Positions 24,967 to 44,815 of a stretch of DNA of 56,823 nt are shown here, piece by piece. This stretch comes from an uncultured Bacillus sp. (GTDB taxonomy: Bacteria; Bacillota; Bacilli; Bacillales_B; DSM-18226). The DNA lies in assembly GCF_946478885.1 (NCBI RefSeq), contig NZ_CAMLDX010000008.1, positions 1 through 56,823 of the forward strand, given 5' to 3'. Made by a program: the position numbers and the translations under genes. The notes below the pieces were generated by a model. The model was not told the origin of the DNA, did no database searches, and saw only the letters and a list, made by a program, of their open reading frames with translations. The first letter of the stretch is position 1, and every line of letters starts with the position of its first letter.

Positions 24967-26666
<1,700 letters not shown>

Positions 26667-26708
26667 AATGTATATTCCTCCTCATTAATATATGTATTTG
26701 AGTCCTTC

Positions 26709-26748
26709 AAAAAAAGGTGATAAAGGGGGCTTCCCTCTTATCACCTTT
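26709..26748 (-). terminator. Terminator or attenuator between rpsB and tsf
   Basis: AAAGGTGATAA pairs perfectly with TTATCACCTTT, and the interior GAGGGAAGCCCCC can pair further. Seven T follow on the minus strand. It has the form of a strong terminator inside a gene pair normally cotranscribed, so read-through or a separate tsf promoter is expected. Confidence 0.85.
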
Positions 26749-26779
26749 CCCTGTCTAAATCCAGTCTATTCTTAAACGA

Positions 26780-27514
<735 letters not shown>

Positions 27515-27608
27515 TTATTTTCCTCCGCCTATATCATTTCTGTTGGAAACTGAAGTATCCAGCACCATCCATTCAGATCCATAGACGTGTGTATTAACAC
27601 CGTTTTAA

Positions 27609-27638
27609 AATATACCATATTTACAAATGAAAGATCAA
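27609..27638 (-). promoter_or_regulatory. Probable rpsB promoter
   Basis: On the minus strand TTGATC (27638-27633), an 18-base spacer and TATATT (27614-27609) with an extended TGG before it form a good vegetative promoter. It would give a leader of about 110 bases before rpsB. The -35 begins one base after the swrB stop codon. Confidence 0.65.
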
Positions 27639-27639
27639 G

Positions 27640-28305
27640 TTATTCCTGTTGATTTTCGTTAAATTTGAGGAGAAGCTCGATCTCTGTCTTTCCTTTTTTT
27701 AATTGCCTGGCCATTTCTTCTTCCGAAATCCCCTCTTTTTTCATAATCATCACCTGTGTTAATAGTGAATCCTTCGTAGCAGAATTTCCCGAAGTTTTCT
27801 TTTCTACCTGTTTGATCGCCGCCGACTTTAGGTCAATCATGGCGTTTCTTTGCTTCTGGCTTTCTGCTGACGATATTGTAGCAATTGTTTCTGATTGTCT
27901 TTGAGAGGAACGCTGATAGGCCTTTACCGCTTGCAGACCAGCCATTTTTTCAAGCTTTGAGGAAAGTTCACTAAAAGGATTGGCCTCTGCTGTAGGTCGC
28001 TTTATTTCACCTTGCTGCTCATTTTCAATGCGGTCTTGTCCCATGCTATGACCATCAGGAATAGTTGGTGCGTTTGCACTAACCTGCTTCTCCTTTTGTA
28101 TTTCTTTAACGCGTTGAATGAAATGCTCATTGTCCTCCTTCATTTCTAATAAATAGGAGCTAATTAAATGATCCATTTCTATCATCATTTTCTTTTGATT
28201 TTCGTCTATCTTGCTCAGCCTGTTCTGACGCAAGAATAGGATCGCAATCGCTAGAAGAGCCGCAATATTTAATATTAAACTGACAATTATAAGAAAGACT
28301 AACAT
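27640..28305 (-). CDS. swrB: SwrB-like (YlxL) swarming/flagellar assembly protein
   Basis: This 221-residue protein has one N-terminal transmembrane segment (about residues 3-25). A charged, coiled-coil-prone and low-complexity middle follows. The small C-terminal region (MKKEGISEEEMARQLKKGKT) resembles a helix-turn-helix. Position at the end of the fla/che operon, right before rpsB, and the N-terminal anchor match B. subtilis SwrB, which promotes basal body/export gate assembly. The protein is longer than B. subtilis SwrB (167 residues) and mostly diverged, so assignment rests on context and architecture. Confidence 0.8.
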   Translation of the reverse strand: MLVFLIIVSLILNIAALLAIAILFLRQNRLSKIDENQKKMMIEMDHLISSYLLEMKEDNEHFIQRVKEIQKEKQVSANAPTIPDGHSMGQDRIENEQQGEIKRPTAEANPFSELSSKLEKMAGLQAVKAYQRSSQRQSETIATISSAESQKQRNAMIDLKSAAIKQVEKKTSGNSATKDSLLTQVMIMKKEGISEEEMARQLKKGKTEIELLLKFNENQQE

Positions 28306-28314
28306 ATGATCCCT

Positions 28315-28623
28315 CTATCCGCTGTAATCAATGATGGTACCTTTATATGGATGCTCTTCCTGTCCGGTACCGCCTTTTGGCTTTTTTCTGCTTTTTCCTT
28401 GCTTAGTAGGCTGTTCCCCCGGTTTATTCTTATAGAACCTTCCTTCATTGGAGTGCTCATTTTTCATGACACTGTTCTGCAGCAGATCTGTATCTTCTTT
28501 GACTGATTCTCCGACCTGCCCTGTAACAAGCTGACTGCGCTGAAGCTGATCCTGAATTTTCCCGGCATCCATTGTCCTTGGGAGGGCCACTTGCATTTCA
28601 ATTGCTTTAAGGCTCATTGTCAT
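28315..28623 (-). CDS. Small conserved-looking protein between sigD and swrB, unknown
   Basis: This 102-residue protein has no membrane segment. The N-terminal 30 residues (SLKAIEMQVALPRTMDAGKI then QDQLQR) look like a folded, conserved region. The rest is hydrophilic and rich in Gly, Lys, Pro and Gln, ending in KGTIIDYSG. It starts at ATG after AAGGGAAG and is nine bases before swrB, so it is translated with the operon. The B. subtilis operon, as I know it, has no gene here. I recall similar ALPRT-containing proteins beside sigma factor genes in other Firmicutes, but its function is unknown to me. Confidence 0.75.
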   Translation of the reverse strand: MTMSLKAIEMQVALPRTMDAGKIQDQLQRSQLVTGQVGESVKEDTDLLQNSVMKNEHSNEGRFYKNKPGEQPTKQGKSRKKPKGGTGQEEHPYKGTIIDYSG

Positions 28624-28750
28624 ACACTTCCCTTGTTCAGCATATACTGCACATTATTACTCTATCAAAGATCCGACCAGGCACTGAAAAATCCGCATGT
28701 ATACCTGAAATGATGTGATGCAGGGACAAAAGATGTCATATCTTTTCTTA

Positions 28751-29515
28751 TTATATAAGTTTTTCTAACGATTTTCTAAGCTTATAGATACATTTTGAAT
28801 GAATTTGCGAAATTCTTGAAGTAGAAAGATTCATAATCTGTCCAATTTCCGTCAAAGTCAGTTCTTCCCGATAAAATAAGCTGATAACAAGCTGTTCTTT
28901 ATCGTTTAGCTGCGAAATAATGCCTATCATTTCTTCGATAACTTCCTTCTTTAGTATGCTTTCCTCTGGAAGGATAGCCCGATCATCTTTTAGAGAAAAG
29001 GTAGTCCGCTCTGTATCCTCGTGTTCCTTTACACCTTCATCCATTGATAGTACATTGGCAAAGAAATATTCATTCATGGTTGTGTATACTTCCTCAACAG
29101 GAAGATTTAATTCTTTGGCCACCTCTTCAGCTGTTACATTTCTCATGTACTTCTGTTCGAGTCTTCCAATCAATGCATCCATTTTTTTTGCTTTATCCCT
29201 TGTACTTCGCGGAAGCCAATCTTCTTTCCTTAATCCATCTAAAATAGCCCCTCGTACTCTAAATGAGGCATATGTATCAAATTTTAGGTCTCTTTTTGGA
29301 TCAAATTTTTCCAACGCATCATACAGACCCATCATTCCCAAGCTTTTTAAATCTTCTCTGGAGACATTTTTAGGGAGTGATACAGAAATTCGCTGTACAT
29401 GATAACTAACAAGAGATAAATATTTTTTAATTAAAAAATTGCCTGCATCCTCATCTCGGAAGTTTGTCCATTTTTCCCAATATTGCTGTTCATCTTCTGT
29501 TACGGCATGCACCAT
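28751..29515 (-). CDS. sigD: RNA polymerase sigma factor SigD (FliA/WhiG family)
   Basis: This 254-residue motility sigma factor is collinear with B. subtilis SigD. Region 2 has LMGLYDALEKF-type sequence (MMGLYDALEKFDPKRDLKFD) and YASFRVRGAILDGLRKEDWL. Region 3 is RNVTAEEVAKELNL. Region 4 is EELTLTEIGQIMNLSTSRIS. It directs late flagellar, motor and autolysin genes. It is far down the operon, where in B. subtilis its expression depends on full-length transcription. Confidence 0.98.
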   Translation of the reverse strand: MVHAVTEDEQQYWEKWTNFRDEDAGNFLIKKYLSLVSYHVQRISVSLPKNVSREDLKSLGMMGLYDALEKFDPKRDLKFDTYASFRVRGAILDGLRKEDWLPRSTRDKAKKMDALIGRLEQKYMRNVTAEEVAKELNLPVEEVYTTMNEYFFANVLSMDEGVKEHEDTERTTFSLKDDRAILPEESILKKEVIEEMIGIISQLNDKEQLVISLFYREELTLTEIGQIMNLSTSRISQIHSKCIYKLRKSLEKLI

Positions 29516-29540
29516 AGTACTCTGTAGCCCCCTTTCTTCA

Positions 29541-30044
29541 TTAGAGATAGTTGGTTCCTTTATTGACCGTTCTTATCGATAAAACACCGGACTTGGGATC
29601 AAACTCTATTGTTCTGCCACTATTCCCTCCTGTATCTTCGGCTACAAGAGCTATCTGCAGTTCCGATAATTGTTTTTTTACTGCTTCAACATTTCTAGGT
29701 CCAATTCGCATCATTTCATTACCGTTCCTAAACGCAAACATTTGAGCACCTCCGGCAATTTTTGCCTTAAGACAGGGCCTTTTTGCTCCGCTGTTAAGCA
29801 GACGCATTACGAGTTCCTTCACAGCCGTATCCGCATATTTAGCGATATTAAGGGGACCTCCTCCATCTCTTGACAAGGAAGAATCGGGCAGCATAATATG
29901 CGCCAGTCCCCCAAGTTCTCGAAATGGATCATATATAATCACGCCAACACATGAGCCTAAGCCCGATGTCCGAATGATATTGGGAGACGTGACAATGTTC
30001 ATATCAGCAATTCCAACTTTCACTAATTGTTGTGTCTTATTCAT
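29541..30044 (-). CDS. cheD: Chemoreceptor glutamine deamidase CheD
   Basis: This 167-residue enzyme deamidates receptor glutamines and interacts with CheC. The catalytic Cys is in [12 protein letters not shown] and the catalytic His is in [11 protein letters not shown]. The [10 protein letters not shown] segment is also present. It overlaps the cheC end by eight bases, which fits the coupled CheC-CheD pair of the Bacillus adaptation system. Confidence 0.97.
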
Positions 30045-30678
30045 CTATCACAACTCCTAGTGAACCAAAAATTTTATGAAAGGAGTCAGGATCCGGAAAA
30101 AGGAAGAAATGGCTATCAATCCTTTCCGCCTTTTGATCACTTGTATCATTTAATGCTGTTTCAATGACAATAACCGAATCAGAAAACTGTGATATTTCAA
30201 TAAAACCATATGAAATAATAGCTCCAATCATATCGACACAAATGGCTGGAACAGAAGGATACATCTTCAGCCCTGTGAAGTCCGATAAGGACGAAATATA
30301 AGAGCCTGTCAGGATATTCCCTAATTCCTGAAAGGCCGAAAGGGACATTTCATCGTATTGCAAGTCTGCGAATGAAAAGGTGTTATTCCCGGTCATCTTC
30401 CGAATCAACCTTTCACCCTGCAACAGAGGCAGTACAAAAAACATATGTGAAGGAGCCTCTCCTTCAATCCTTAAATAGACACTGGCAACGATGGTTTCGG
30501 CTCCTCCTGCCAGTTCCATCATTTCATCAAAAGAGGCAATCTGGACATTTGGCACTTTCATTTCTATTTTTTTATTCATAATCGTGGAAAGGGCAGTTGC
30601 TGCGTTCCCTGCCCCGATATTAGCAATTTCCTTCAGGATATCAATATGAATGGATGAGATGTGATCAAGAAAACCCAT
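30037..30678 (-). CDS. cheC: CheY-P phosphatase CheC
   Basis: This 213-residue protein has both CheC/FliY-type phosphatase motifs: [17 protein letters not shown] near residue 15 and [15 protein letters not shown] near residue 110, each with the E-x2-N pair. It dephosphorylates CheY-P and is activated by CheD. It starts two bases after the cheW stop. Confidence 0.97.
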
Positions 30679-30680
30679 AT

Positions 30681-31142
30681 TTATTCCCCTGCCGTTTTTA
30701 ACTTTTCAAGATGAAGCACTTTTTCCAGATCAATTAAAATAAGAAGCCGTTTATCCAACTTGATAACACCACCAATGTAGTCTTCCTCTTCATGATTAAT
30801 AACTTCTGGCGATGTTTCTATTACGTCCTCGGTAATATCGATGACGTCATTGGCAGCATCCACGATTAAACCCACTTCCATCTCCTTATATGCGACAATA
30901 ATGATCCTTGTTTCATCCGTATATATGCATTCCTCCATATCAAAGCGTTTCCGCAAATCGATAACGGGAGTCACGATCCCCCGAAGATTTATGACCCCTT
31001 TTACAAAGGAAGCTGTTCCCGGTACTCTTGTAATATGCTGGATCTTTTCAATCCCGTATACATGCTCAACCGCAAAGCAATAGTCTTTTCCACTCAATTT
31101 AAATACGATTAATTTGATTTCCTTTGTCGATAGATCTGACAT
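30681..31142 (-). CDS. cheW: Chemotaxis adaptor CheW
   Basis: This 153-residue protein is a single CheW SH3-like domain, with LIVFKLSGKDYCFAVEHVYG, TRVPGTASFVKGVINLRG and VIDLRKRF. It couples receptors to CheA. The ATG follows AGAGGGGTAACTGT. A 60-base gap separates it from cheA. Confidence 0.98.
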   Translation of the reverse strand: MSDLSTKEIKLIVFKLSGKDYCFAVEHVYGIEKIQHITRVPGTASFVKGVINLRGIVTPVIDLRKRFDMEECIYTDETRIIIVAYKEMEVGLIVDAANDVIDITEDVIETSPEVINHEEEDYIGGVIKLDKRLLILIDLEKVLHLEKLKTAGE

Positions 31143-31202
31143 ACAGTTACCCCTCTTTCATCCCTACTGGTAGAGCTACATACACAATTGGCCTCATCGG
31201 TA

Positions 31203-33248
31203 TCATTTTAATAGCGCATTACAATCAACAACCAATGCGACCTGACCGTTTCCTAAAATGGTTGCACCTGAGATTGCGAATACATTGACAAAATAATCCC
31301 CAAGAGATTTTAAGACGATCTCTTGCTGACCAATAAAAGAATCCACCACAAGTGCTGCTATTTTTTCCCCTTTACGGACAATGACAACAGATGTGTACCC
31401 ATTCTCTTCTTCAGTAATTGGAACATTAAATATATCCTTCAAGTAAAGCAAAGGTATAATCTTGCCGCGGAAGTCCATCACCCTTTGATTATGGGCAAGA
31501 AAAGTATCTTCATTTTTGATGATGGCTGTTTCTATAATTGAATTAAGCGGAATGGAGTATTTTTCCTCTTGAACCCCTACCAGCAACACAGAAATAATCG
31601 ATAGGGTTAATGGCAGTTGTATGGTAAAAACAGAACCCGCCCCTTCAACTGAGTCAACCGAGACATTTCCTCCCAAATTTTCAATGGTATTTTTCACCAC
31701 ATCTAATCCGACACCGCGTCCAGATATATCGGAAATCTTTTCTGCAGTTGAAAATCCCGATGCAAAGATCAATTCGTAAACTTGCTGATTCGTTAACAAA
31801 GCTGCATTTTGCGGACTAACAATTCCATTCTTTAATGCCTTTTGCAGTATTTTTTCACGGCTGATGCCATTCCCGTCATCCTCAATTTCAATCATTACGT
31901 GGTTCCCGGAATGATAGGCTTTTAATACCACCGTTCCTTCATCACTTTTCCCACGCTCTCTTCTTACATCAGGCATTTCTATCCCATGGTCAATAGAATT
32001 ACGGATTAAATGGACAAGCGGATCACCAATTTCATCTATTACCGTTCGATCCAGTTCCGTTTCAGCCCCTCTGATATCAAGATTAATTTTCTTATGTAAA
32101 TCACGTGCAAGCTGACGAACCATGCGGGGAAAACGATTAAAGACTGTTTCAATCGGAATCATTCGCATATTTAAGATAATATTTTGCAGATCGCTCGTTG
32201 TTCTCGACATTCTGTCAACAGTCTCTTGTAGTTCCTGATCTTTCAAATCAAAGGAGATTTGCTCCAATCTCCCTCTATCAATGACTAACTCCTCGAAGAG
32301 GTTCAGTAAAATATCCAACCGTTCAATATTAACCCGAATGGTTTTATTACTTTGCTTAACAGCCGAGTGATTTTTACTCGGATCAGAATCAGGGGTGGCC
32401 TTCTGTTCGCTAACCTGTTTTACCGATGTTGTTGCGGTCTCTTCTGCTTTCTGCGTGTTAAGAGTATCGGGCACTGCTTCGATTGAATCAAAAGAAAGCG
32501 GTTGAACCGAAACAGATTCCACCTCGGAGATCTGCATAATAGTTTGTTCAATCACTGAAGTTTCTTCTTTTGTAATAAGGGTAACTGAAAACGTCCGATC
32601 AAAATTCTCCTCTTCCAGTTGTTCTACAGAAGGAGAGGACTTAATGATTTCACCCATTTTTTCCATTGCAGTAAAGACCATAAACGCTCTTGCAGCCTTT
32701 AACAAACAGTCGGCACTTTGTGAAACAGTAATTTCATATACTTGAAAACCCTGCTCTTTTGATTGCTCAATTACTGTCCTTTCGAACTCGTCATAAAGAA
32801 TATCTGATTTCTGTACTTCTGCAGTATCTGTAGCTGTGTCATGTCCATCTTCATTTGTTGCCGGTTTTTTCCCGGATTCAATCAGCTTGAGCTGCTCTAC
32901 GACTGTTGAAACATCTCTCGTGCCATCTCCTCCTTGAGCAATGGACTGAATCATTGCTTCCAAATGATCAACGGCTATAAAGATGACATCCAGTATTTCC
33001 GGGGTAAAGGAGATGATTTTGTTTCTAATTGCATCCAGTACATTTTCCATTTGGTGGGTCAGATTGGCCAAATCCTCATACCCCATGGTTGCGGACATTC
33101 CTTTTAAGGTATGGGCAGAACGAAATATTTCATTTACAATTGCGGGATCATCAGGGTGTTTTTCCAACAGTAATAAATTTTCATTGCATGCTTGTAAATG
33201 CTCTTTGCTTTCCTCAATAAAAACTTCTAAATACTGACTTGTATCCAT
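31203..33248 (-). CDS. cheA: Chemotaxis histidine kinase CheA
   Basis: This 681-residue kinase phosphorylates CheY and, in most species, CheB. The P1 phosphorylation histidine is H46 in AHTLKGMSATMGY. A variable P2 region and linker (about 130-320) and P3 dimerisation domain follow. P4 has LIRNSIDHG and the G1/G2 boxes (IEDDGNGIS; SGRGVGLDVVKN). A C-terminal CheW-like domain ends the protein. The longest frame starts at 33272. The ATG at 33248 is spaced correctly from AAAGGTGAGAGG and matches the B. subtilis N-terminus (MDTSQYLEVF), so it is preferred. Confidence 0.98.
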   Translation of the reverse strand: MDTSQYLEVFIEESKEHLQACNENLLLLEKHPDDPAIVNEIFRSAHTLKGMSATMGYEDLANLTHQMENVLDAIRNKIISFTPEILDVIFIAVDHLEAMIQSIAQGGDGTRDVSTVVEQLKLIESGKKPATNEDGHDTATDTAEVQKSDILYDEFERTVIEQSKEQGFQVYEITVSQSADCLLKAARAFMVFTAMEKMGEIIKSSPSVEQLEEENFDRTFSVTLITKEETSVIEQTIMQISEVESVSVQPLSFDSIEAVPDTLNTQKAEETATTSVKQVSEQKATPDSDPSKNHSAVKQSNKTIRVNIERLDILLNLFEELVIDRGRLEQISFDLKDQELQETVDRMSRTTSDLQNIILNMRMIPIETVFNRFPRMVRQLARDLHKKINLDIRGAETELDRTVIDEIGDPLVHLIRNSIDHGIEMPDVRRERGKSDEGTVVLKAYHSGNHVMIEIEDDGNGISREKILQKALKNGIVSPQNAALLTNQQVYELIFASGFSTAEKISDISGRGVGLDVVKNTIENLGGNVSVDSVEGAGSVFTIQLPLTLSIISVLLVGVQEEKYSIPLNSIIETAIIKNEDTFLAHNQRVMDFRGKIIPLLYLKDIFNVPITEEENGYTSVVIVRKGEKIAALVVDSFIGQQEIVLKSLGDYFVNVFAISGATILGNGQVALVVDCNALLK

Positions 33249-33268
33249 TATCCTCTCACCTTTCAGAA

Positions 33269-34018
33269 TCAAACATATTTCATAATTGCCGCCGCGATTT
33301 CTTCAATATTCGCAATATCATCTATTAATCCGGTGGCAATGGCTGCTTTCGGCATTCCATAGATAATACATGATTCTTCAGACTCAGCAATTGCAACGCT
33401 ATTGCCTTTCTGTTTTACTAACACAAGACCCTTCGCACCATCAGACCCCATACCAGTCATGATCACAACTATTTTCCCATAGCTGTCCAGACTAGCGGCT
33501 GATTGTAGCATGACATCAACCGATGGACAATGCGTACTGTTTTCCGATGAATGATCTAATCGAAAAGCCAGGCGATCACCTAAAGCCATAATTTGCAATT
33601 GTTTGCCGCCCGGTGCAATATATGCCTTTCCATTTTGCAGAATTTCCCCATTTTCCGCTTCCTTCACTGTAATTTGGGCCAGGGAATTCAGTCGTGTAGC
33701 CAAGGATCCCGTAAAACCTCGCGGCATATGCTGAACAATAACGATTGGGACAGTTATCTCCTTCGGCAGCATTGTCAATACCGTCTCGAGTGCGGCTGGT
33801 CCTCCGGTCGAAGTCCCTATTAAAATAATTTTCCTCGAAATTTCGCTCCATCTAGATTCCTGGTATGAATGACTCGGTTCTATTGTACTACTTCCAAAAC
33901 AGAAAAAAGCAGTACTTTTTTCTCTTAGAGAAGGATTCTTATCGATATCACGGAAAATCGTTTTATTAATGGTTCCTTCTCTCACAACTTGAACTTCTCC
34001 ATTATCAATTTTCTTCAA
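33269..34018 (-). CDS. cheB: CheB methylesterase lacking the receiver domain
   Basis: This 249-residue protein carries a complete CheB_methylest domain from about residue 62 to the end. The catalytic triad is present: S70 in GTSTGG, H97 in VQHMPRGF and D193 in MTGMGSDGAKG. The usual 120-residue N-terminal receiver (DD...D...K) is absent. The first 60 residues are hydrophilic and resemble only the linker. The intact flhG gene ends ten bases upstream, so no receiver is hidden in another frame. The start is TTG at 34018 in this reading, and a GTG 12 codons later is an alternative. It is an unusual form of CheB. Confidence 0.9.
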   Translation of the reverse strand: MKKIDNGEVQVVREGTINKTIFRDIDKNPSLREKSTAFFCFGSSTIEPSHSYQESRWSEISRKIILIGTSTGGPAALETVLTMLPKEITVPIVIVQHMPRGFTGSLATRLNSLAQITVKEAENGEILQNGKAYIAPGGKQLQIMALGDRLAFRLDHSSENSTHCPSVDVMLQSAASLDSYGKIVVIMTGMGSDGAKGLVLVKQKGNSVAIAESEESCIIYGMPKAAIATGLIDDIANIEEIAAAIMKYV

Positions 34019-34027
34019 GGCGATACA

Positions 34028-34897
34028 CTACCTTTCAAACAGGAATCTTTTCAGCTTCGTGGCAAAACTCGTTTTGACTGCGTGATGCTCAAAAGAGAAC
34101 ATCCGTTGGCAAAACCTCTCTGTCAGTTCAATTAATGCACGGGATGAAGGTGATTTTACATTATATTGAATAAACGGTATTTGTCTTTTCACCGCCCTTT
34201 GGATATTCTGGTCATCTGGAATGATCCCAAGAAGAATGACGTTTTTTTCTAAAAAATGTCGTAACACTTTAGAAATACGATGGAAAATCTCCGTTCCTTC
34301 TTTTTCATTCTGTGCTCGATTCACAATAATATAAAAGGGCATTTCTTTATTTTCCAATATAATATATTTCATCGCTGAATAAGCGTCCGTAATGGAAGTC
34401 GGCTCTGTAGTGGTCACAACAACCACTTCATCAACAGATAAAATAAATTGTAACGAAGTATCATTTAGTCCGGCTGGCATGTCAAAGATAATGTACTGGT
34501 ACTCATTAAACAGAAGCATAAACTCTTCTGTGAAGGAAAAAAATGAATCTTTATTGATTTGGGGAAAGGTCGATAAACCAGTTCCACCCGCAATAAAATG
34601 GATACCTCCTGGCAGTTCAGTGATCATGCTTCTTAAGGGAACAGGATTCTCTGAGAAAAAATCAGCAATGGAGTACTGCGCTGATAATCCGGATAAGATA
34701 TCTATATTCCCCATGCCGATATCCATATCAAATAAAAGGACAGAATTACCTCGATTTACTAATTCAATAGCAAAATTCAATGAAAAGTTTGACTTTCCCA
34801 CTCCGCCTTTCCCGCTGATTACTGCTACTGTTCTGGCTGAAGTGTTTAAACATTTTGCATTAAGCTTTTCACGTAAAATCTCTGCTTGATCTTTCAT
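34028..34897 (-). CDS. flhG: FlhG (YlxH), MinD-like ATPase for flagellar placement
   Basis: This 289-residue deviant-Walker ATPase has ISGKGGVGKSNFSLN as its P-loop, FDMDIGMGNIDILSG and FDMPAGLNDTSLQF. The N-terminal MKDQAEILREKL matches the DQAxxLR motif that activates the FlhF GTPase. An amphipathic basic C-terminal end (TKLKRFLFER) may be the membrane-targeting sequence. It starts one base after the flhF stop region. Confidence 0.97.
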   Translation of the reverse strand: MKDQAEILREKLNAKCLNTSARTVAVISGKGGVGKSNFSLNFAIELVNRGNSVLLFDMDIGMGNIDILSGLSAQYSIADFFSENPVPLRSMITELPGGIHFIAGGTGLSTFPQINKDSFFSFTEEFMLLFNEYQYIIFDMPAGLNDTSLQFILSVDEVVVVTTTEPTSITDAYSAMKYIILENKEMPFYIIVNRAQNEKEGTEIFHRISKVLRHFLEKNVILLGIIPDDQNIQRAVKRQIPFIQYNVKSPSSRALIELTERFCQRMFSFEHHAVKTSFATKLKRFLFER

Positions 34898-34898
34898 T

Positions 34899-36035
34899 CT
34901 AGTTGACCCCTATAAGATGATTTACAACTTTTTCAGGAGTTGCATAAATGATGTCATCTGGAACATTTTGACCATTGGTAATGTAAGCAACAGGCTTTTG
35001 CCATGAATACATGATGTTAAACATCGATCCAAAAGTAGAAGTTTCGTCTGCCTTCGTTAAAATGATATTGTCTATTTTGACAGTAGAGAATTGCTGATAT
35101 ATTTCTTCCATATCCTTTTGTTTTGCTGTTAATGCCAACACTAGAAATGTCTCCATCCCTTTACTAAAGTCAATAATCTTTTTCAAATCTTCTACATGAA
35201 AAGGATTGCGGAAATTTCTCCCAGCAGTATCGATAAAAACAATGTCATAGCTTTCAAATTGTGTCACAGCATGCTGAAAGTCCTCCATCGTATAACAGAC
35301 TTCAATGGGAACATTTAAGATATTGGCATAGGTCTTCAATTGTTCAATCGCTGCGATGCGATATGTATCCGTTGTAATAAAGGCTACCTTCTTATTGTAT
35401 TTTAAAATACAGTCAGCAGCCATCTTCGCTAAGGTGGTTGTTTTCCCTACACCTGTTGGCCCGACAACAGTTATGTATTTATTCGTGAATGATAACCCTG
35501 AGTATGTCAGATGAGAAATTTTCTTCATCATATAGTCTTTAGCCAACTGCAGCGCCTCAGCGTCCGACTTATTCCCCCCGGTATTTTGCCACCATACTTT
35601 CGCATGCGTAACGATCTCATATACTACGGCTTCTTTTACTTCCTGTTTTAATAAGACTTGTTGCATATATTGCAGAGCTTCCGGCAACGGAGGGTTTTCC
35701 TTAATATTTCGATCCACGACACTGTTCAGTAATAACTTTAACTCAGAAATTTCTTTATGCAGTTCTGTCGTTTCTTGAACATTCTTAATATCGGCTGTTT
35801 TTTCCATTTGTGTATGTGCTTGTTGTACAGGAAGCACTCCCGATTCCTTTTTTAATATAGTCGGCTTTTCATCGAGTGCAGCAATCACTTCAATGCTCTT
35901 TTTCTTAAATAATCCAAGAAAACCCTTGGTTTGTATCACTCTTGAATGAAGAATAATAGCTTCATTTCCTAGATCACTACGAATCTGCTTCATGGCTTCC
36001 GGCATTGTGGAAGCCTGATATTTTTTTAACTTCAT
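34899..36035 (-). CDS. flhF: FlhF, SRP-type GTPase for flagellar placement
   Basis: This 378-residue protein has an N-terminal B domain (MKLKKYQASTMPEAMKQIRS), a linker and an NG domain with VVGPTGVGKTTTLAKMA, TTDTYRIAAIEQL and FIDTAGR. It localises the nascent basal body with FlhG. Its ATG overlaps the flhA stop by four bases. Confidence 0.98.
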   Translation of the reverse strand: MKLKKYQASTMPEAMKQIRSDLGNEAIILHSRVIQTKGFLGLFKKKSIEVIAALDEKPTILKKESGVLPVQQAHTQMEKTADIKNVQETTELHKEISELKLLLNSVVDRNIKENPPLPEALQYMQQVLLKQEVKEAVVYEIVTHAKVWWQNTGGNKSDAEALQLAKDYMMKKISHLTYSGLSFTNKYITVVGPTGVGKTTTLAKMAADCILKYNKKVAFITTDTYRIAAIEQLKTYANILNVPIEVCYTMEDFQHAVTQFESYDIVFIDTAGRNFRNPFHVEDLKKIIDFSKGMETFLVLALTAKQKDMEEIYQQFSTVKIDNIILTKADETSTFGSMFNIMYSWQKPVAYITNGQNVPDDIIYATPEKVVNHLIGVN

Positions 36036-38068
36036 TCTACATTCACCACCCCGACACTTTGAACCTCTACATTTGCTTCGAGCTCATTATAAGACAATAT
36101 GGGAATCTGCGGAAAATAACGCTCTGTTAATTGACGAATATACATTCTTACAGCAGGCGAACAAAGAATAATAGGAGTTGTCCCCATCAATGATAATTGA
36201 TCTACCTGTGAAGCAACCGCTTCTAGGATCTTCTGCGATACTGCAGGATCAATGGCCAAATAACTGCCATGTTCCGTTTGCTGAATTCCGTCGGCAATGA
36301 TCTTTTCAACCTTTCCTGAAACCGTCACAACCTTTAATGATTCATTTGGCTGGCTGTATTGATTTGTAATTTGTCTTGCAAGGGCCTGTCTTGCATACTC
36401 AGCTAGTAGATCCGTATCCGATGTAGCCTTCCCAAAATCGGCTAATGTTTCAAAAATAACCGGAAGATTCCGGATTGACACATTTTCTTTTAACAGTTTT
36501 GCCAATACCTTTTGTACCTCCCCAACTGACAATGGATTTGGGGTTACTTCTTCGACAAGAATTGGGTAGCCTTCCTTTAAATGATCGATTAACTGCTTAG
36601 TTTCCTGGCGTCCTAATAAGTCATGAGCATTCATTTTTATAATTTCCGTAATATGAGTGGAAACCACAGAAGGGGGATCCACGACAGTATAGCCTAAAAT
36701 TTCAGCATCTTCTTTTGTTTCCTCTGTAATCCATTTCGCCGGCAGCCCAAAGGACGGCTCGATGGTATCAATGCCAAAGATAGCATCATCACCCTCTCCG
36801 GGACTCATCGCTAAATAATGATCAAGCAGCAGTTCTCCTCTGGCCATTTCATTTCCTTTAATTTTCAAACGGTATTCATTTGGTTGTAGCTGGATATTAT
36901 CCCTAATGCGTACAACAGGAATGACTAATCCCAGTTCGATCGCCAATTGTCGGCGAATCATAACGATTCGATCTAGTAGATCACCGCCTTGATTGGTATC
37001 GACCAGCGGTATTAATCCGTAGCCAAATTCAAATTCAATCGGATCCATGCTTAATAAAGAAACCACATTTTCCGGACTTTTCAGGTCTGCTGAATCCTGT
37101 TCTTCTTCCATTTCTTCAAGTGGCTCTTTATAGCCCACAGGAATTTTCGAGAACCGGTAACCGCCTAGAATGAGGAGTACGGCAATCGGAATGGTTAATA
37201 CATCATTAATAGGTGTAAATAATCCAAGGGCAAATATGGTTCCTCCTGTAACATAAAGCATCTTTGGAAAGGACAGCAATTGTGATATAATATCCTGTCC
37301 CAGGTTGCCGTCAGATGCTGCCCTTGTCACGACAATTCCAGTTGCAGTTGATATAATTAAAGCCGGCACCTGGCTGACGATTCCATCTCCGACTGTCAGC
37401 AATGAAAAGTGACTAACCGCATCCGCAAAGGCCATCCCTTGCTGCATCATTCCAATGATAATGCCAAAGATCAGGTTAATCAGGACAATGATAATTCCCG
37501 CAATTGCGTCCCCCTTGACAAATTTGCTGGCACCATCCATCGAACCGTAAAAATCAGCCTCCCTGCTCACTTTATCGCGTCTTTCCCTTGCCTGCTGTTC
37601 TGAGATCATACCGGCGTTTAAATCGGCATCAATACTCATTTGTTTCCCCGGCATAGCGTCAAGGGTAAACCTTGCCGCAACTTCAGAAACACGCTCCGAA
37701 CCCTTCGTAATAACAATGAAGTTAATAATGACTAAGATTAAAAAGACAACCATTCCAACCAGAATATTCCCGCCTACTACGAATGAACCGAACGTTTCAA
37801 CAACACCACCTGCATCTCCATGGGTAAGAATGGCCCGGGTTGTCGAAACATTTAAGCCAAGACGAAATAATGTCAGTAAAAGCAGTAAGGATGGAAAAAC
37901 GGAAAACTGCAAGGGCTCCGTCATATTCATGGAGGTCAGCAGCACCAGTAGCGCCAATGAAATATTAATAATTAATAAAATACTAAGAAGCCAGGTAGGC
38001 AAAGGAATGATAAGCATGGTTACTATCATAATCACTCCAAGAAATACCGATAGTTCTTTTACCGCCAT
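36032..38068 (-). CDS. flhA: Flagellar export gate protein FlhA
   Basis: This 678-residue inner-membrane component of the type III export gate has eight hydrophobic segments in the first 310 residues. They are split by the conserved cytoplasmic loop (DAMPGKQMSIDADLNAGMI, the FHIPEP-family signature). A large cytosolic domain (about 330-678) binds export chaperones and substrates. It follows flhB with a 51-base gap. Confidence 0.99.
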   Translation of the reverse strand: MAVKELSVFLGVIMIVTMLIIPLPTWLLSILLIINISLALLVLLTSMNMTEPLQFSVFPSLLLLLTLFRLGLNVSTTRAILTHGDAGGVVETFGSFVVGGNILVGMVVFLILVIINFIVITKGSERVSEVAARFTLDAMPGKQMSIDADLNAGMISEQQARERRDKVSREADFYGSMDGASKFVKGDAIAGIIIVLINLIFGIIIGMMQQGMAFADAVSHFSLLTVGDGIVSQVPALIISTATGIVVTRAASDGNLGQDIISQLLSFPKMLYVTGGTIFALGLFTPINDVLTIPIAVLLILGGYRFSKIPVGYKEPLEEMEEEQDSADLKSPENVVSLLSMDPIEFEFGYGLIPLVDTNQGGDLLDRIVMIRRQLAIELGLVIPVVRIRDNIQLQPNEYRLKIKGNEMARGELLLDHYLAMSPGEGDDAIFGIDTIEPSFGLPAKWITEETKEDAEILGYTVVDPPSVVSTHITEIIKMNAHDLLGRQETKQLIDHLKEGYPILVEEVTPNPLSVGEVQKVLAKLLKENVSIRNLPVIFETLADFGKATSDTDLLAEYARQALARQITNQYSQPNESLKVVTVSGKVEKIIADGIQQTEHGSYLAIDPAVSQKILEAVASQVDQLSLMGTTPIILCSPAVRMYIRQLTERYFPQIPILSYNELEANVEVQSVGVVNVE

Positions 38069-38119
38069 AAAATCCCCTCCTTTCCAGACAGAAATGGAAT
38101 ACTTGCCACTTGCCTTGTC

Positions 38120-39202
38120 TTAAATAATATTTTTGGTACGGTAAACATAAGCCAATATCTCAGCTACCGCCTTGAAAAACTCCTCCGGAATGGCCTCGCC
38201 GATTTCCGCTTGACTGTATAGTGCTCTTGCCAAAGGCCGGTTTTCCACCATTATGACTTGATTTTCTTTGGCAATATATTTAATCTTTTGCGCGACATAA
38301 TCAACACCTTTTGCTACAACATAGGGGGCATCCAGTTTTTTTTCATCATATTTTAGTGCAATAGCATAGTGCGTAGGATTTGTGATAATTACATCTGCCT
38401 TCGGTACCTCCTGCATCATTCTCCGCATTGCCGCTTCCCGTTGTTTCTGCTTGATTTTCGATTTAATTAACGGATCCCCTTCTGAATTTTTAAATTCATC
38501 CTTTAGATCCTGCTTTGACATTCGGATATTTTTTTCAAAGTCATACTTTTGATATAAATAATCCAGTAAAGATAGGAAAAGGAGAGCACCACCAGCATAT
38601 AAACCCATTTGTACCGTTAAATCGGCTAAAACAGCTAATGCTGATCCAATTGTTTTTTGTGAAAGAATTAAAATTTCATCCATTCTGTTCCATAAAACAA
38701 GAAAAGTAATCACACCGACGATACTCAACTTCAAAATTGACTTTAAAAATTCAACAACGGAACGAAGGGAAAAAATCCTCTTAAAGCCTTTAATTGGGTC
38801 AATTTTTTCTAATTTTATCTGAATGGCCTCAGGCGAAAACAGCATACCTACCTGAAAATAGTTTGCCGCTACGCCGGCAAACAAACCTACTAGCATCACC
38901 GGCCCTGCAAGCATTGCCGTCTCCTTCATCATTTCGAGTAATATGCTCTGGACACTTTCCTCTGTTAAATCAAGCAGCATATATTCCTGAAATGAATGTT
39001 GAAAAATCGAAAGGATGATTTTTTTTAAATAGGATCCGGCAAATAACAAAAATAAAAATACTGCACAAAGTCCGATGGCGACGTTAACATCATGGCTTTT
39101 CGCTACCTGCCCTTTTTTTCTGACATCTTGGCGTTTTTTAGGAGTCGCTTTTTCTGTTCTTTCTCCAGCAAAATATTGCAAATCTAAAGCTAATAGTTTC
39201 AC
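38120..39202 (-). CDS. flhB: Flagellar export specificity-switch protein FlhB
   Basis: This 360-residue protein has an N-terminal GERTEKATPKKRQDVRKKG, four membrane segments and a cytosolic domain with the autocleavage site N275-PTH. Cleavage and the FliK ruler switch export from rod/hook to filament substrates. It lies five bases after fliR. Confidence 0.99.
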   Translation of the reverse strand: MKLLALDLQYFAGERTEKATPKKRQDVRKKGQVAKSHDVNVAIGLCAVFLFLLFAGSYLKKIILSIFQHSFQEYMLLDLTEESVQSILLEMMKETAMLAGPVMLVGLFAGVAANYFQVGMLFSPEAIQIKLEKIDPIKGFKRIFSLRSVVEFLKSILKLSIVGVITFLVLWNRMDEILILSQKTIGSALAVLADLTVQMGLYAGGALLFLSLLDYLYQKYDFEKNIRMSKQDLKDEFKNSEGDPLIKSKIKQKQREAAMRRMMQEVPKADVIITNPTHYAIALKYDEKKLDAPYVVAKGVDYVAQKIKYIAKENQVIMVENRPLARALYSQAEIGEAIPEEFFKAVAEILAYVYRTKNII

Positions 39203-39207
39203 TTTTT

Positions 39208-39984
39208 TTATGGCCCCCCAAACAGAGACATAAGCCCTCTCATCGTTGTAAGCATTGTTTCAAACAGTTTGGAAACAGCTACCATCAAGGTTCCCATTAC
39301 AATAAGCAGGATAATAAAACTTACGGCAATCTTGATTGGTATTCCAACAACAAAGATATTTAATTGTGGAAAGGTTCTTGCCAAAATTCCAAGAGCCACA
39401 TCAACCAGAAACAAACTGCCAACTATCGGCAGGGACATCTGCAGCGCGATCATAAACATCGTATTGAAGGAACGAACCACATATTCAGCCACTCCTTTAC
39501 TTCCAAGTGGCAACCAGCCTTGATCGAGCGGAATAAAACGGTAGCTATAATAAATTCCATCCAAAATTAAATGATGCCCGTTTACCATTAATAGAAAAAA
39601 CAACGAAATGACATAAAAATATTGACCCATCAAGGGACTTTGCACTCCTGTTTGTGGATCAATGACATTGGCGATAGCAAAACCCATTTGAAAGTCAATA
39701 AAACCGCCTGCCACTTGAATAGCTGATAAAATGATATACGCCATTAAACCAATGAGAACTCCAACCAATGCTTCTTTCAAAATTAATAAATAATATGTGC
39801 TATTAATCTCTAAAGCTGGTACATCCAACGTAAAATACATAATAAATGATAAAAAAAACCCCAACCCTACTTTAAAGTGTGTCGGAACCGTCCGATAAGA
39901 GAATAGAGGCATCATCAGGAAAAAAGAAGTAACCCGAACAAAAATTAGCAAAAAGACCGGAAATTTTGGAATAAAATCAATCAT
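39208..39984 (-). CDS. fliR: Flagellar export gate protein FliR
   Basis: This 258-residue, strongly hydrophobic protein has about six membrane segments, with the family features GLMAYIILSAIQVAGGFIDF and the C-terminal LRGLM-containing end. It assembles with FliP and FliQ into the export pore. It is three bases after fliQ. Confidence 0.97.
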   Translation of the reverse strand: MIDFIPKFPVFLLIFVRVTSFFLMMPLFSYRTVPTHFKVGLGFFLSFIMYFTLDVPALEINSTYYLLILKEALVGVLIGLMAYIILSAIQVAGGFIDFQMGFAIANVIDPQTGVQSPLMGQYFYVISLFFLLMVNGHHLILDGIYYSYRFIPLDQGWLPLGSKGVAEYVVRSFNTMFMIALQMSLPIVGSLFLVDVALGILARTFPQLNIFVVGIPIKIAVSFIILLIVMGTLMVAVSKLFETMLTTMRGLMSLFGGP

Positions 39985-39987
39985 GGT

Positions 39988-40257
39988 TTATCCTATAAAC
40001 CTTGTTAAATTAGAGAATATGTCCCCTGCATACGACAGCATATAGCTGAGCATCCAAGGGCCGAAAAACACAATTCCCAGCAGGACCGCTACAATTTTCG
40101 GAATAAAGGCTAAGGTTTGCTCCTGAATTTGCGTCGTTGCCTGAAAAATACTGACAATTAATCCCACAACAAGCGCTAATAACAAGAGCGGTCCGGCAAT
40201 GACCATTACAGCCCATATCCCTTCTTCGGCGATCGAAACCACTGATTCAGGAGTCAT
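39988..40257 (-). CDS. fliQ: Flagellar export gate protein FliQ
   Basis: This 89-residue protein has two hydrophobic segments (about 15-40 and 55-75) around the family motif SIFQATTQIQEQTLAFIPK. Length and position between fliP and fliR are standard. Confidence 0.98.
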   Translation of the reverse strand: MTPESVVSIAEEGIWAVMVIAGPLLLLALVVGLIVSIFQATTQIQEQTLAFIPKIVAVLLGIVFFGPWMLSYMLSYAGDIFSNLTRFIG

Positions 40258-40272
40258 TTCTCATTCACCTTC

Positions 40273-40938
40273 TTAGAAGCTTTCTAAAAGCGATTTAATT
40301 ACTAAATACCACCCGTCTACCAAAACAAATAACAAAATTTTAAATGGCAGAGAAATCATAACAGGCGGCAGCATCATCATGCCCATTGACATTAGAACAC
40401 TTGCGACTACCATATCAATGACTAAAAACGGAATAAAAATCATAAAGCCGATCTGAAAGGCTGTTTTCAATTCACTGATGGCATATGCCGGTACCAGTGC
40501 TGATAATGGGATATCCTGAATGGATTCCGGAGCATCCGCCTGGACGTAATTAAGAAACAATGCCAAATCCTTTTGTCTTGTGTGGGCACTCATAAACTCT
40601 TTAATAGGGACAGATGCCTTTTCATATGCCTGCTCCAGATTAATTTCTTCATTAAATAAAGGAGTTAAGGCTTCTTTATTAATCTCCGAAAAGGTTGGTC
40701 CCATGATAAAAAAGGTTAGAAATAATGCCAGCCCAATCAATACTTGATTAGGGGGCATCTGTTGGGTAGCAAGCGCCGATCTGACAAACGATAATACGAC
40801 AACAATCCGTGTAAAACAAGTCATTAAAATGAGAATACTCGGTGCAAGTGTCAGGACGGTCAGCATTAAAATGAGTTTTACGGATGTCGAAACATTCTCC
40901 GGTGAACTGGTATTAAAAAACTCCATGAATTCATTCAT
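40273..40938 (-). CDS. fliP: Flagellar export gate protein FliP
   Basis: This 221-residue protein has LAPSILILMTCFTRIVVVLS, QMPPNQVLIGLALFLTFF and the C-terminal LPFKILLFVLVDGW, all FliP signatures. Four membrane segments are seen, with no long N-terminal signal peptide as found in proteobacteria. Its ATG overlaps the fliO stop by four bases. Confidence 0.99.
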   Translation of the reverse strand: MNEFMEFFNTSSPENVSTSVKLILMLTVLTLAPSILILMTCFTRIVVVLSFVRSALATQQMPPNQVLIGLALFLTFFIMGPTFSEINKEALTPLFNEEINLEQAYEKASVPIKEFMSAHTRQKDLALFLNYVQADAPESIQDIPLSALVPAYAISELKTAFQIGFMIFIPFLVIDMVVASVLMSMGMMMLPPVMISLPFKILLFVLVDGWYLVIKSLLESF

Positions 40939-41639
40939 TTCTTATCCGTTCCCTCACTTTTCCCCACTTCTTCATATATTTTTTTTCTTTCTTTAGCCAA
41001 TTCATTCAGCTGCTGCTGCAGCATTGATTGAAACAGTGGCGCAGATTCCTTATGGTTCTGATGCTTTAGCACCTTTTTCTTGATCTTTGCCATGAGTTCA
41101 TTGGGCTGAACTAACTGATCAAGTTTCTGGTTATATTCGGACAGGATTTGATTGTATTCCTCTACATCCTCTATTTCCTTCAGAAGCTGGACATTTTCGC
41201 CAACACCCACAATGAATAATCGCTTTCCGATCCTGATCATTTGAACAGAGCGGTTGGCTCCAAGTGGAACGCCACCTAAATTATCCATTAACTGCGAATT
41301 TTTAAGCATAGTACTTTTTTTATTCATGAATTTTAATACTAAATATAGGAGGGCAACAACAAAAATCGTTGCCAGAATCATTTTGATAAAATCCCAAATC
41401 GTTAAGCCTACCTTCGTTGTATTCTTAGAGACTGCGGCAGGATTTGCTTGATTACTAGATTGATTATCAGTCCTCTCTTCCCCACCTTGAGATGAAGCCT
41501 GCTTTTCTCCGCAAGATGAGGGCTGTTCTATACAATCCTTTACCGTATTGTTCACCTGTTCTGCATATACGTGCGAAGAATAGCTCGGCAGAACAAACAA
41601 AAATACCCATCCGATAAAATAAAACAATATTTTCGGCAC
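40935..41639 (-). CDS. fliO: FliO/FliZ flagellar export assembly protein
   Basis: This 234-residue protein has an N-terminal signal peptide (about 1-26, ending before EQVNNTV) and a hydrophilic extracytoplasmic stretch rich in Ser/Gln/Asn. One membrane segment (about 82-104) is followed by a cytosolic FliO domain (LGGVPLGANRSVQMIRIGKR). It stabilises FliP during gate assembly. B. subtilis calls it FliZ. Confidence 0.93.
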   Translation of the reverse strand: MPKILFYFIGWVFLFVLPSYSSHVYAEQVNNTVKDCIEQPSSCGEKQASSQGGEERTDNQSSNQANPAAVSKNTTKVGLTIWDFIKMILATIFVVALLYLVLKFMNKKSTMLKNSQLMDNLGGVPLGANRSVQMIRIGKRLFIVGVGENVQLLKEIEDVEEYNQILSEYNQKLDQLVQPNELMAKIKKKVLKHQNHKESAPLFQSMLQQQLNELAKERKKIYEEVGKSEGTDKK

Positions 41640-41668
41640 TTTCCTGCACCCTCTAATTATGAAAGATT

Positions 41669-42031
41669 CTAATTAAGTGTTTTTGAAATGGCTTCAATGA
41701 CTCGATCCGCCTGGAAAGGCTTAACAATAAAATCCTTTGCACCTGCCTGTATCGCATCGATTACCATTGCCTGCTGGCCCATGGCTGAACACATAATGAC
41801 TTTTGCATTTGGATTTATTTGTCTAATCTCTTTTAATGCCGCAATTCCATCCATTTCAGGCATGGTGATATCCATTGTAACGAGATCAGGCTGCAGTTCA
41901 CGGTATTTTTCAACTGCCTGATGTCCATCCACTGCCTCTCCTACTACTTCATACCCATTTTTAGTTAGGATGTCTTTAATCATCATTCTCATGAATGCTG
42001 CATCATCCACGATTAAAATTCGTTTTCCCAT
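41669..42031 (-). CDS. cheY: Chemotaxis response regulator CheY
   Basis: This 120-residue stand-alone receiver has an acidic pocket of D9 and D10, phospho-acceptor D54 (VTMDITMPEMDG), S82 and K104. Phosphorylated by CheA, it binds the switch, where FliM and FliY are encoded just upstream. In the Bacillus operon it is placed between fliY and fliO, as here. Confidence 0.98.
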   Translation of the reverse strand: MGKRILIVDDAAFMRMMIKDILTKNGYEVVGEAVDGHQAVEKYRELQPDLVTMDITMPEMDGIAALKEIRQINPNAKVIMCSAMGQQAMVIDAIQAGAKDFIVKPFQADRVIEAISKTLN

Positions 42032-42075
42032 TGTTTTCAGTCCTCCGTCAATACAATTCTCTTAATAGGGATTTT

Positions 42076-43353
42076 TTATCTTAAATGGTTAATACGGTCT
42101 GACTTGCTAATAATATCTGTCACCCTCACACCGAAATTTTCATCAATTACAACGACTTCTCCTTTAGCAATCATTCGATTATTCACATAGATGTCGACCG
42201 GTTCACCGGCAAGTTTATCAAGCTCAATTATTGCTCCTTGTGTCATGGCCAATATTTCTTTTACCGATCTTTTCGTTCTTCCCAGTTCAACGGTTACTTG
42301 TAACGGGATATCTAAAAGCAGCTCCAGATTTCGTACTTCCGTTTCCTGCAGTGTATGAGATTCAAAATTAGAGAATACCGCCGGCTGAATAACAGGCTGG
42401 TGTATACTATGCCCGGATGAATAGGCTGAGCCAAAATGCTGCGGTGAACCGGAATTCCACTTCATTTCATCCTGAGTAGCTTGATTTGCTAAATAGCTTG
42501 GCTCCTGCATGGAGAAAGCCTGCGACGGAGGAATCTCTTCCCCTTTTTGATCAGGAGCTTGATTTGCCGCTTGATTCTGCTGTCCGTTATCAATTGGCTG
42601 AAGCTCCTTCTGCAATGATTCTTGTTCTGCACTATTCTGGAATGATTCCCGGGGGTCAGCCATAGGATTTAACAACTCATTAACTAGGCTTCTGGCAAAC
42701 TCCACAGGAAGCAACTGCATAATTTTTGAATCAATCAGATTGCCGATTTTTAAGCGGAATGATATTTTCACGAGCATGTCATCATTTGGTATCTTATTCG
42801 TTCCCTCACCTTGCGCGACATTCAAGACATCAATTGAAGGTGGCGAAATATCGACTCTTTTATGAAAAATAGTGGACATTGAGGTTGCAGCAGATCCCAT
42901 CATCTGGTTCATCGCTTCCTGAACAGCGCTAAGCTGGATTTCTCCGAGAATATCAGATGTGATCCTACCATCGCCACCTAGCATAAGATCTGCAATAATC
43001 GCTGCATCCTCCTGCTCAATTACTAATAAATTGACTCCAGAAAATCCCTCTGTATAGCTGACCTGTATCGCAACATATGGATGAGGAAATTCTTCGGGAA
43101 GCTTGCTTTTTAAAATCAACGAAACAGACGGTGTAGTTATTTCCACCTTTTGATTCAGCAAGGTGGATAACGCTGTCGCAGAACTGCCAAACGATATATT
43201 TCCTATCTCTCCTAATGTATCCTTTTCCATTATGGAGAGGTAATCTGTCAGTTCCGAGCTGTCATCTGCTGCACTGTTGTCTGCTGTACCGTCATCAATC
43301 GTACCTTTTAATAATGCATCAATTTCATCTTGTGATAGCATTCCATCATTCAT
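42076..43353 (-). CDS. fliY: Flagellar switch phosphatase FliY
   Basis: This 425-residue protein has the N-terminal LSQDEIDALL motif and a CheC-type phosphatase domain with two E-x2-N sites (LGEIGNISFGSSATALS; VQEAMNQMMGSAATS). A Gln/Ser/Asn-rich linker of about 110 residues and a C-terminal FliN (SpoA-type) domain from about 340 follow. It is longer than B. subtilis FliY (378) because of the linker. A GTG at 43362 is generated by the ribosome-binding site itself. The ATG at 43353 is correctly spaced, and it overlaps the fliM end by eight bases. Confidence 0.96.
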   Translation of the reverse strand: MNDGMLSQDEIDALLKGTIDDGTADNSAADDSSELTDYLSIMEKDTLGEIGNISFGSSATALSTLLNQKVEITTPSVSLILKSKLPEEFPHPYVAIQVSYTEGFSGVNLLVIEQEDAAIIADLMLGGDGRITSDILGEIQLSAVQEAMNQMMGSAATSMSTIFHKRVDISPPSIDVLNVAQGEGTNKIPNDDMLVKISFRLKIGNLIDSKIMQLLPVEFARSLVNELLNPMADPRESFQNSAEQESLQKELQPIDNGQQNQAANQAPDQKGEEIPPSQAFSMQEPSYLANQATQDEMKWNSGSPQHFGSAYSSGHSIHQPVIQPAVFSNFESHTLQETEVRNLELLLDIPLQVTVELGRTKRSVKEILAMTQGAIIELDKLAGEPVDIYVNNRMIAKGEVVVIDENFGVRVTDIISKSDRINHLR

Positions 43354-44344: not shown

Positions 44345-44389
44345 CTGTCGCACCCCCCTTGTTTTAGTCTATTGAGATTAATTTGTTTG

Positions 44390-44815
44390 TTATTGGAGGA
44401 TGAACTGAGTGATATAAACCTTTTCAACCTTTCCCTCTTGCATAATTTCATTAATTTTTTCTTTTAACTCCTCCTCAAACTTCCTTTGACCTTCTTTCCC
44501 TTTTATGGTCTCAGTCGTTTTGTCAGAGAGTTCCAATATAATGATGTTATTGACTTGAAACATTCTATTTTCAAGTTCCTTTTTTGCCTTTTTACTATCT
44601 GTTTGAATTTTAAAGGTGATACGGACATATCCATCATTTGCAAGATTCGTTGTAATCTCCGGTATATCCACAGAAACATCCAGTACTTGTTTAATCGTCG
44701 GTTCATTTCCCGGCTCTTGGTTCGTGTATTTTAACACAATAACAAGAGCAACAGTTCCTGCAAGGGCGATTGCTACAAGTAACATCATCATGATCATGAC
44801 AAGTTTATTCTTCAT
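44390..44815 (-). CDS. fliL: Flagellar basal body protein FliL
   Basis: This 141-residue protein has one N-terminal membrane segment (about 5-27) and an extracytoplasmic SPFH-like FliL domain, with conserved [19 protein letters not shown] and the end [13 protein letters not shown]. It supports stator function. The start is taken at the second ATG (44815), seven bases after AAGGGGG. It overlaps swrD. Confidence 0.95.

Follow-up and report, generated by a model that had tools for sequence, protein, structure and literature searches.

The window analysed here, the whole stretch of 56,823 nucleotides from an uncultured Bacillus sp., carries a set of chemotaxis genes on its reverse strand, and in the slot between flhG and cheA lies a cheB gene for a catalytic domain without a receiver (Table 1). 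The listed open reading frame of cheA begins at a TTG, and use of that codon gives a 4-base overlap with cheB. The start of cheB itself is uncertain, being either TTG-1, which gives the 249-aa protein, or GTG-12; because the frame spans just 252 codons (252 aa) from stop to stop, no longer start is hidden upstream.

Table 1. Chemotaxis genes and linker blocks in the window
Feature	Position	Strand	Description
flhG	34028..34897	(-)	289 aa, intact upstream neighbour of cheB
cheB without receiver	33269..34018	(-)	249 aa; catalytic domain at residues 65-245; disordered N-terminal tail at about 1-50
Block 1 of linker element	33908..33913	(-)	ACTGCT in the window; consensus nCTnYT; two codons, positions 2 and 3 conserved, amino acids vary
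Block 2 of linker element	33877..33892	(-)	AGTAGTACAATAGAAC in the window, 3 mismatches; consensus TATAGTAAAATAGAAC; 15 nt after block 1
cheA	31203..33272	(-)	Hpt, P2, dimerisation, ATPase and CheW-like domains
cheW	30681..31142	(-)	homologue in genome G001 matches PF01584
cheC	30037..30678	(-)	found by domain search
cheD	29541..30044	(-)	found by domain search
cheY-like free-standing receiver	41669..42031	(-)	matches the CheB-receiver HMM

Judged against a two-domain CheB, the encoded protein has the catalytic triad (S70, H97 and D193) and the expected place in a che operon beside cheA, and it lacks the N-terminal receiver with its phospho-acceptor Asp. Pfam CheB_methylest matched residues 65-245 at E = 8.9e-60, no Response_reg match was obtained in the protein even at E ≤ 1, and NCBIfam returned partial CheB models only, below cut-off. 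A CheB-receiver HMM, run with filters off on all frames of at least 20 aa in 33001-35200, gave chance scores only, the best of them (E = 0.27) lying inside the catalytic domain; in the same run the positive control, the receiver ORF of a split cheB from outside the training set, was found at 1.4e-62. Across 26001-44500, the sole frame matching this HMM was the free-standing cheY-like gene. The agreement of Pfam, the receiver HMM and the 252-codon frame bears out what a preliminary description had read from the letters, namely an intact catalytic domain with the receiver absent in all frames, and its intact flhG just upstream is likewise confirmed, ending nine bases before the cheB TTG. AlphaFold2 modelled the catalytic domain confidently (pLDDT ≥ 90 at 173 of 249 residues), with block means of 40-50 over residues 1-50, and the model matched 1chd and 3sft in Foldseek.

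Distribution and repeated loss of the receiver

In a protein search space of about 5.8 billion, the window CheB had 7097 matches, of which the best 120 were examined. Among the matches listed, P0002-P0040, all without PF00072, outrank the first full-length CheB (P0041), and the short close relatives include those of Bacillus tuaregi, Niallia oryzisoli, N. endozanthoxylica, Niallia sp. Krafla_26 and Bacillus sp. V3B. We then inferred, by quick search, a tree of the catalytic domain with 122 rows; 18 duplicate or distant loci had been removed beforehand and the full-length matches sampled in part. On this tree 46 of the 48 receiver-less rows formed one clade (SH-aLRT 97); these rows amount to 44 distinct sequences, window included, some genes being present twice. 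The two rows outside the clade were a Marinococcus locus (L068) and P0112, which comes from a 1.2-kb contig and begins inside the receiver. At loci from named genomes the receiver was in the CheB frame in 78 of 80 cases, the exceptions being N. endozanthoxylica (L001) and L068. CheB was present in 146 of 193 genomes of the family of G001, and among the matches listed there a receiver-less CheB sat beside flhG and cheA in G001, G003, G004 and G006. Whether the short form was peculiar to the strain or shared by its lineage had been left open at first; judging from the relatives' cheB at the flhG-cheA slot, it is lineage-wide.

Several loci departed from this arrangement. G015 and G110 carry short CheBs from another class, in a neighbourhood where flhG and cheA both went undetected, and three receiver-less entries (L125 of G015, P0121 and P0122) are of a different class of CheB (Bacillus sp. 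DNRA2), flhG and cheA being undetected within 5 kb. At L029, L035, L041, L066 and L068, fla/che loci had no detectable cheA beside cheB, and at four of these (L029, L035, L041 and L068) cheW was missing as well; in Marinococcus (L068) both genes are sited elsewhere in the genome. The operon of Cytobacillus massiliigabonensis (L023) contains an apparent cheA-cheW tandem repeat in which the second cheA frame has 531 aa.

We next considered whether the catalytic domain has remained under constraint. In 45 clade members, a count that excludes L068, P0112 and a decayed copy in G004, the triad was kept at S70 in 45/45, at H97 in 44/45 and at D193 in 45/45, and identity to the window CheB was about 50-60%. 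CheB distances were predicted from those of CheA, FlhG and CheD, with calibration on 406 full-length pairs. Against this prediction, the six pairs of four receiver-less genomes gave z values of -0.16 to 1.34, and pairs of a receiver-less with a full-length genome gave mean z values of 0.66-1.57, i.e. slightly raised distances. This suggests that the receiver-less CheBs evolve, if anything, slightly faster than predicted, and neither a broken active site nor a clearly raised rate, the marks of a pseudogene, was seen in the window clade apart from the G004 copy. That copy (L119) lies in a decaying che region, with altered cheB motifs, a fragmented flhG and no CheD found in the genome. Throughout the window clade, the Arg of HRPSVD (R257 of 1a2o by alignment) is replaced by Cys. 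As a mark of receiver loss this substitution fails: a second CheB class has the Cys in 108 of 111 full-length members, and the Arg is kept in the nine receiver-less CheBs examined from the Lederbergia/Heyndrickxia family.

The order of G001 was sampled through 397 genomes, 348 of them with CheB. Among the best-scoring rows, further genomes contributed at least 11 short CheB frames, nine receiver-less between flhG and cheA and two split. The Lederbergia/Heyndrickxia family (that of G404), another one within this order, which has no genome in common with the searched family of G001, had short CheB frames in 20 of 34 genomes. Each of the 20 was inspected and lies between flhG and cheA, with no receiver nearby in frames of at least 30 aa at E ≤ 0.01; nine of the other 14 genomes were also inspected and comprised six canonical cases, two pseudo-receivers and one CheB away from flhG. 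Several of the receiver-less genes in this family (e.g. L154, L162 and L164) begin at an ATG that follows a strong ribosome-binding site and immediately precedes the catalytic domain. Receiver-less species include Lederbergia wuyishanensis (G379), L. citrea (G505), L. citri (G524) and L. panacisoli (G580), together with Bacillus niameyensis (G579), Heyndrickxia acidiproducens (G486) and H. acidicola (G575).

On a tree of FlhF, FlhG, CheA and CheC (92 selected rows, CheB unused), receiver-less genomes occupied four places. With groups defined after the tree had been viewed, AU tests rejected the window group as one clade with Heyndrickxia (p = 2.3e-4) and with Lederbergia (p = 1e-84), and thus, on these operon sequences, the receiver is lost at least twice independently. 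Counting Heyndrickxia and Lederbergia as two separate losses was not upheld, since the AU test allows them as one clade (p = 0.64). Marinococcus (L068) likely represents a third independent loss; its long branch shifts between trees, and when five distant rows were dropped it joined the window group with a support of 75.

Intermediate states and a nucleotide element in the linker

Related genomes also hold forms lying between the full and the receiver-less gene. One such state, INTERMEDIATES, is a CheB with a full-length, degenerate, receiver-like N-terminal domain, and was found in G585 (L174), G543 (L175) and the proteins P0264, P0321 and P0331. In the latter three no receiver was matched by Pfam at E ≤ 1. 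In the alignment VDDS has become MSDS, VSDS or ISHS and the SSTT switch region is altered, with the catalytic domain intact and the phospho-acceptor Asp column retained in two of the three proteins. In the model of P0331 strands and helices still follow each other as in a receiver, and the model resembles the receiver of Thermotoga CheB (3t8y; TM 0.66-0.69 by target length). On the operon tree G585 and G543 are nested in the Lederbergia group as sisters of the receiver-less G582 (support 99).

In another state, cheB is split, its receiver and its catalytic domain being encoded by two ORFs in different, overlapping frames, as observed at L123 (G035), L124 (G050), L159 (G367) and L161 (G323). 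In G035 and G050 the frame switches at an A-run in the linker, the length of which differs between close relatives, one of them having a single continuous frame. Programmed frameshifting was considered for the split genes; sequencing error and real slippage could each account for these two cases. Finally, in G005 (L127, L122), the nearest relative of the window on the operon tree, flhG is followed directly by cheA and the slot is without cheB, a linker-like remnant being left in the gap.

The linker itself contains a conserved stretch. The peptide YSKIE is common to the cheB linkers of the window clade, of Cytobacillus and Niallia, and of some other genes, and in 41 distinct linkers selected by this peptide its codons are nearly invariant: AGT encodes Ser in 41/41 (against 8% of the Ser codons further downstream in these genes), ATA encodes Ile in 39/41 (22% downstream) and GAA encodes Glu in 41/41. 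In a similar set of 36, by comparison, codon choice is free at conserved residues of the catalytic domain, S70 being TCA in 13, TCT in 10, TCC in 9 and TCG in 4. Upstream, always 15 nt away, codons -7 and -6 show a tendency to C/Y-T at their second and third positions with a varying amino acid and a third-position T in 29/33 and 24/33, so that the whole forms a bipartite element, nCTnYT-N15-TATAGTAAAATAGAAC, inside the cheB linker. At the third positions of the motif 29-33 of 33 rows agree, the mean for 45 catalytic codons being 0.50, with the proviso that the rows were picked by the 16-mer itself and its own columns are biased. Among the loci collected, the 16-mer with up to 2 mismatches occurred at 52 loci inside the cheB linker (41 distinct genes) and in three other places, namely the flhG-cheA remnant of G005 and two cheB regions (L149 and L150) missed by the script. 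The element is kept both after loss of the receiver, in the window clade, and after loss of the slot cheB, in G005.

These frozen codons suggest that the conservation of YSKIE concerns nucleic acid, and a role of the peptide as a docking motif in the disordered tail is doubtful given that, in addition, it was not found in the other family's 20 genes. Searches of the Lederbergia/Heyndrickxia family found neither peptide nor DNA element in its 20 receiver-less genes; the best matches upstream of the catalytic domain had 3-6 mismatches in the 14-base core; the element thus cannot explain the loss in that family and was rejected as a general cause. A scan for sigma-70-type promoters called 3 sites, compared with 3.5 for shuffled sequence, and none of them fell at the element; Rfam at gathering scores gave no match in L120, L007 or the window, and a plasmid search with the 5' part of cheB gave none either. 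The exact 16-mer was found in 25 viral-contig stretches, a number judged to be about chance for a collection that large. One speculative reading, to which we attach little weight, is that cheB is modular in the relatives of the window, the element at the joint of receiver and catalytic domain being a putative internal promoter, processing site or binding site that would allow separate expression. If so, expression of the catalytic half and the downstream che genes would be uncoupled from that of the receiver, also where a species has cheB in full length, the receiver would be easy to lose in the window lineage, and the persistence of the element beyond the receiver, and beyond the cheB of G005, would be explained.

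Proposed feedback without a CheB receiver

The receiver of known CheB, when unphosphorylated, covers the active site in an intramolecular contact that acts as a cap (as described in PMC8609364). According to the same source, removal of the regulatory domain activates E. coli CheB, but less than phosphorylation does, and the truncated enzyme binds the receptor weakly. The occlusion implies that a natural truncation should be permanently open. We infer, with a probability of about 0.68, that the window CheB functions as a genuine receptor methylesterase, has lost its receiver and is free of kinase control, feedback running via CheC, CheD and CheY-P and usually CheV. Without the cap, the active site would be open at all times and could not be tuned through phosphorylation by CheA; demethylation would then be set by the amount of enzyme and by receptor conformation, so that some activity dependence may survive the loss of CheA control. 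The fast, kinase-dependent part of adaptation would be carried by CheC/CheD/CheY-P, usually together with CheV. As the receiver-less sequence stands, direct CheA phospho-feedback should be unable to act on the window CheB, a point that is well supported. Of the preliminary description's 'constitutively active, uncoupled from CheA', the uncoupling thus holds in that there is no receiver, whereas constitutive activity is a prediction to be tempered by the E. coli truncation, reported as less active than phosphorylated CheB (PMC8609364). Tethering of the protein to receptors via the linker was considered and set aside, the pentapeptide site mapped at the receiver-linker junction (PMC8609364) being lost here.

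The partner proteins are largely in place. CheD was found in 33 of the 34 genomes checked, those with full-length CheB among them, and was absent from G004 only; CheR was present in 7/7 genomes searched, and the P2 domain of CheA was kept in 8/8 genomes checked, including G005 and one genome with full-length CheB, as well as in the window. A CheV-sized gene (303-309 aa) was present in all four receiver-less window-clade genomes (G001, G003, G004 and G006), and CheV was full-size by frame length in 7/7 genomes of one survey. In a second survey it was full-size by the same measure in 17 of 20 receiver-less genomes of the Lederbergia/Heyndrickxia family and in 7 of 8 others, and in the remaining 3 of the 20 CheV was without a receiver too, which argues that CheV is not a general backup. 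The suggestion that feedback is left to CheC/CheD plus CheV therefore stands as far as the window (CheC, CheD) and its clade (CheV in 4/4) are concerned, and fails as a rule for CheV in the other family. At L183 (G505), L184 (G274), L186 (G584) and L188 (G586), the cheV slot, recognised by the same neighbour gene, holds a lone CheW-like domain of 156-181 aa; around these four short genes, frames of at least 110 aa yielded no receiver. Three adaptation systems are described for B. subtilis (PMC3513319). Parallel systems of this kind would make phospho-control of CheB redundant, upon which the receiver may decay, as in the pseudo-receivers, split off or be deleted; the sequences fit loss by drift as well as by selection.

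Other explanations were weighed against this one. A full-length CheB elsewhere could be the main methylesterase and the short protein an accessory paralogue, as might be argued from G006, which has a second CheB of 360 aa with a receiver on another contig, in a separate cluster with cheR, cheW and cheA near, and from G005, the window's close relative with the empty slot, whose only CheB (351 aa, with a receiver) lies beside a partial cheR on another contig, away from the flhG-cheA slot. However, G001, G003 and G004 have one CheB each, receiver-less, and each of the 34 Lederbergia/Heyndrickxia-family genomes has just one CheB, so we regard an accessory role as unlikely, though it keeps some weight. 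The linker-like scrap in G005 and the altered motifs of the G004 copy would also suit a relic on its way out, with little or no function; the triad in 44-45 of 45 sequences, and the near-normal rate across a clade about 50-60% identical to the window CheB make such decay improbable for the window protein.

Restored phospho-control, in which another protein's receiver, that of CheY, CheV or an orphan, would act on the catalytic domain in trans, is more doubtful still, to the point of being very improbable. CheY-like proteins and CheV are present, and the split genes of G035, G050, G367 and G323 do make a separate receiver ORF, but the closest free-standing matches to the CheB receiver in G001, G003, G004 and G006 are CheY-sized proteins (50, 50, 44 and 50% identity), no receiver closer than these was found in the four genomes, and the known cap is an intramolecular contact (PMC8609364). 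An artefact of assembly or sequencing, the alternative raised at the outset as a deletion between flhG and cheB, might draw on the error-prone A-run at which two of the four split genes (G035 and G050) switch frame. It is virtually eliminated, and for the clade refuted, because 46 receiver-less rows (44 distinct sequences) fall into one clade and because the form recurs in many species at a site flanked by flhG and cheA.

The repeated loss of the CheB receiver bears on an old question: when chemotaxis in E. coli and B. subtilis was compared in 2004, what CheB phosphorylation does in the latter species was described as unknown (PMC340952). Separate receiver losses in relatives of B. subtilis that keep CheC and CheD amount to a natural experiment on that role, with the prediction that the CheB phospho-switch is dispensable where CheC/CheD/CheY-P feedback exists; the recurrence of the loss suggests that feedback from the kinase on CheB is dispensable in Bacillus-type chemotaxis. 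Models of Bacillus-type adaptation that need CheB-P could not apply to the receiver-less lineages. Moreover, related species span the full, pseudo-receiver, split and receiver-less states and absence from the slot, and can be used for direct tests.

Relation to known CheB proteins

In a literature search that lay mostly outside subscription papers, neither Lederbergia nor Heyndrickxia appeared by name among the best matches. A receiver-less CheB as such is already in print, the CheB of Campylobacter jejuni being described as without a response-regulator domain (PMC340952), and the stronger result is the clade-wide, enzyme-intact and recurrent loss.

The window CheB is most closely comparable to three known forms. 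It shares with the canonical CheB of the Bacillus fla/che operon the flhG-cheA slot, the catalytic domain and about 50-60% identity, and differs from it in that the canonical protein has a receiver, whereas the window clade is without one and has Cys for Arg at HRPSVD, a change that is not diagnostic. The laboratory fragment CheBc has the same domain content and is activated by removal of the regulatory domain (PMC8609364); it is artificial and without a linker, unlike the window protein with about 60 residues before the catalytic domain or some Lederbergia forms with about 11. As a catalytic-domain-only CheB of a chemotaxis system, the window protein is of the type found in C. jejuni, a natural receiver-less CheB to which it is likened through the published description only (PMC340952); in contrast to C. 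jejuni, the cases of the window type sit in a pathway of the CheC/CheD/CheV type and, judging from the operon trees, arose at least twice.
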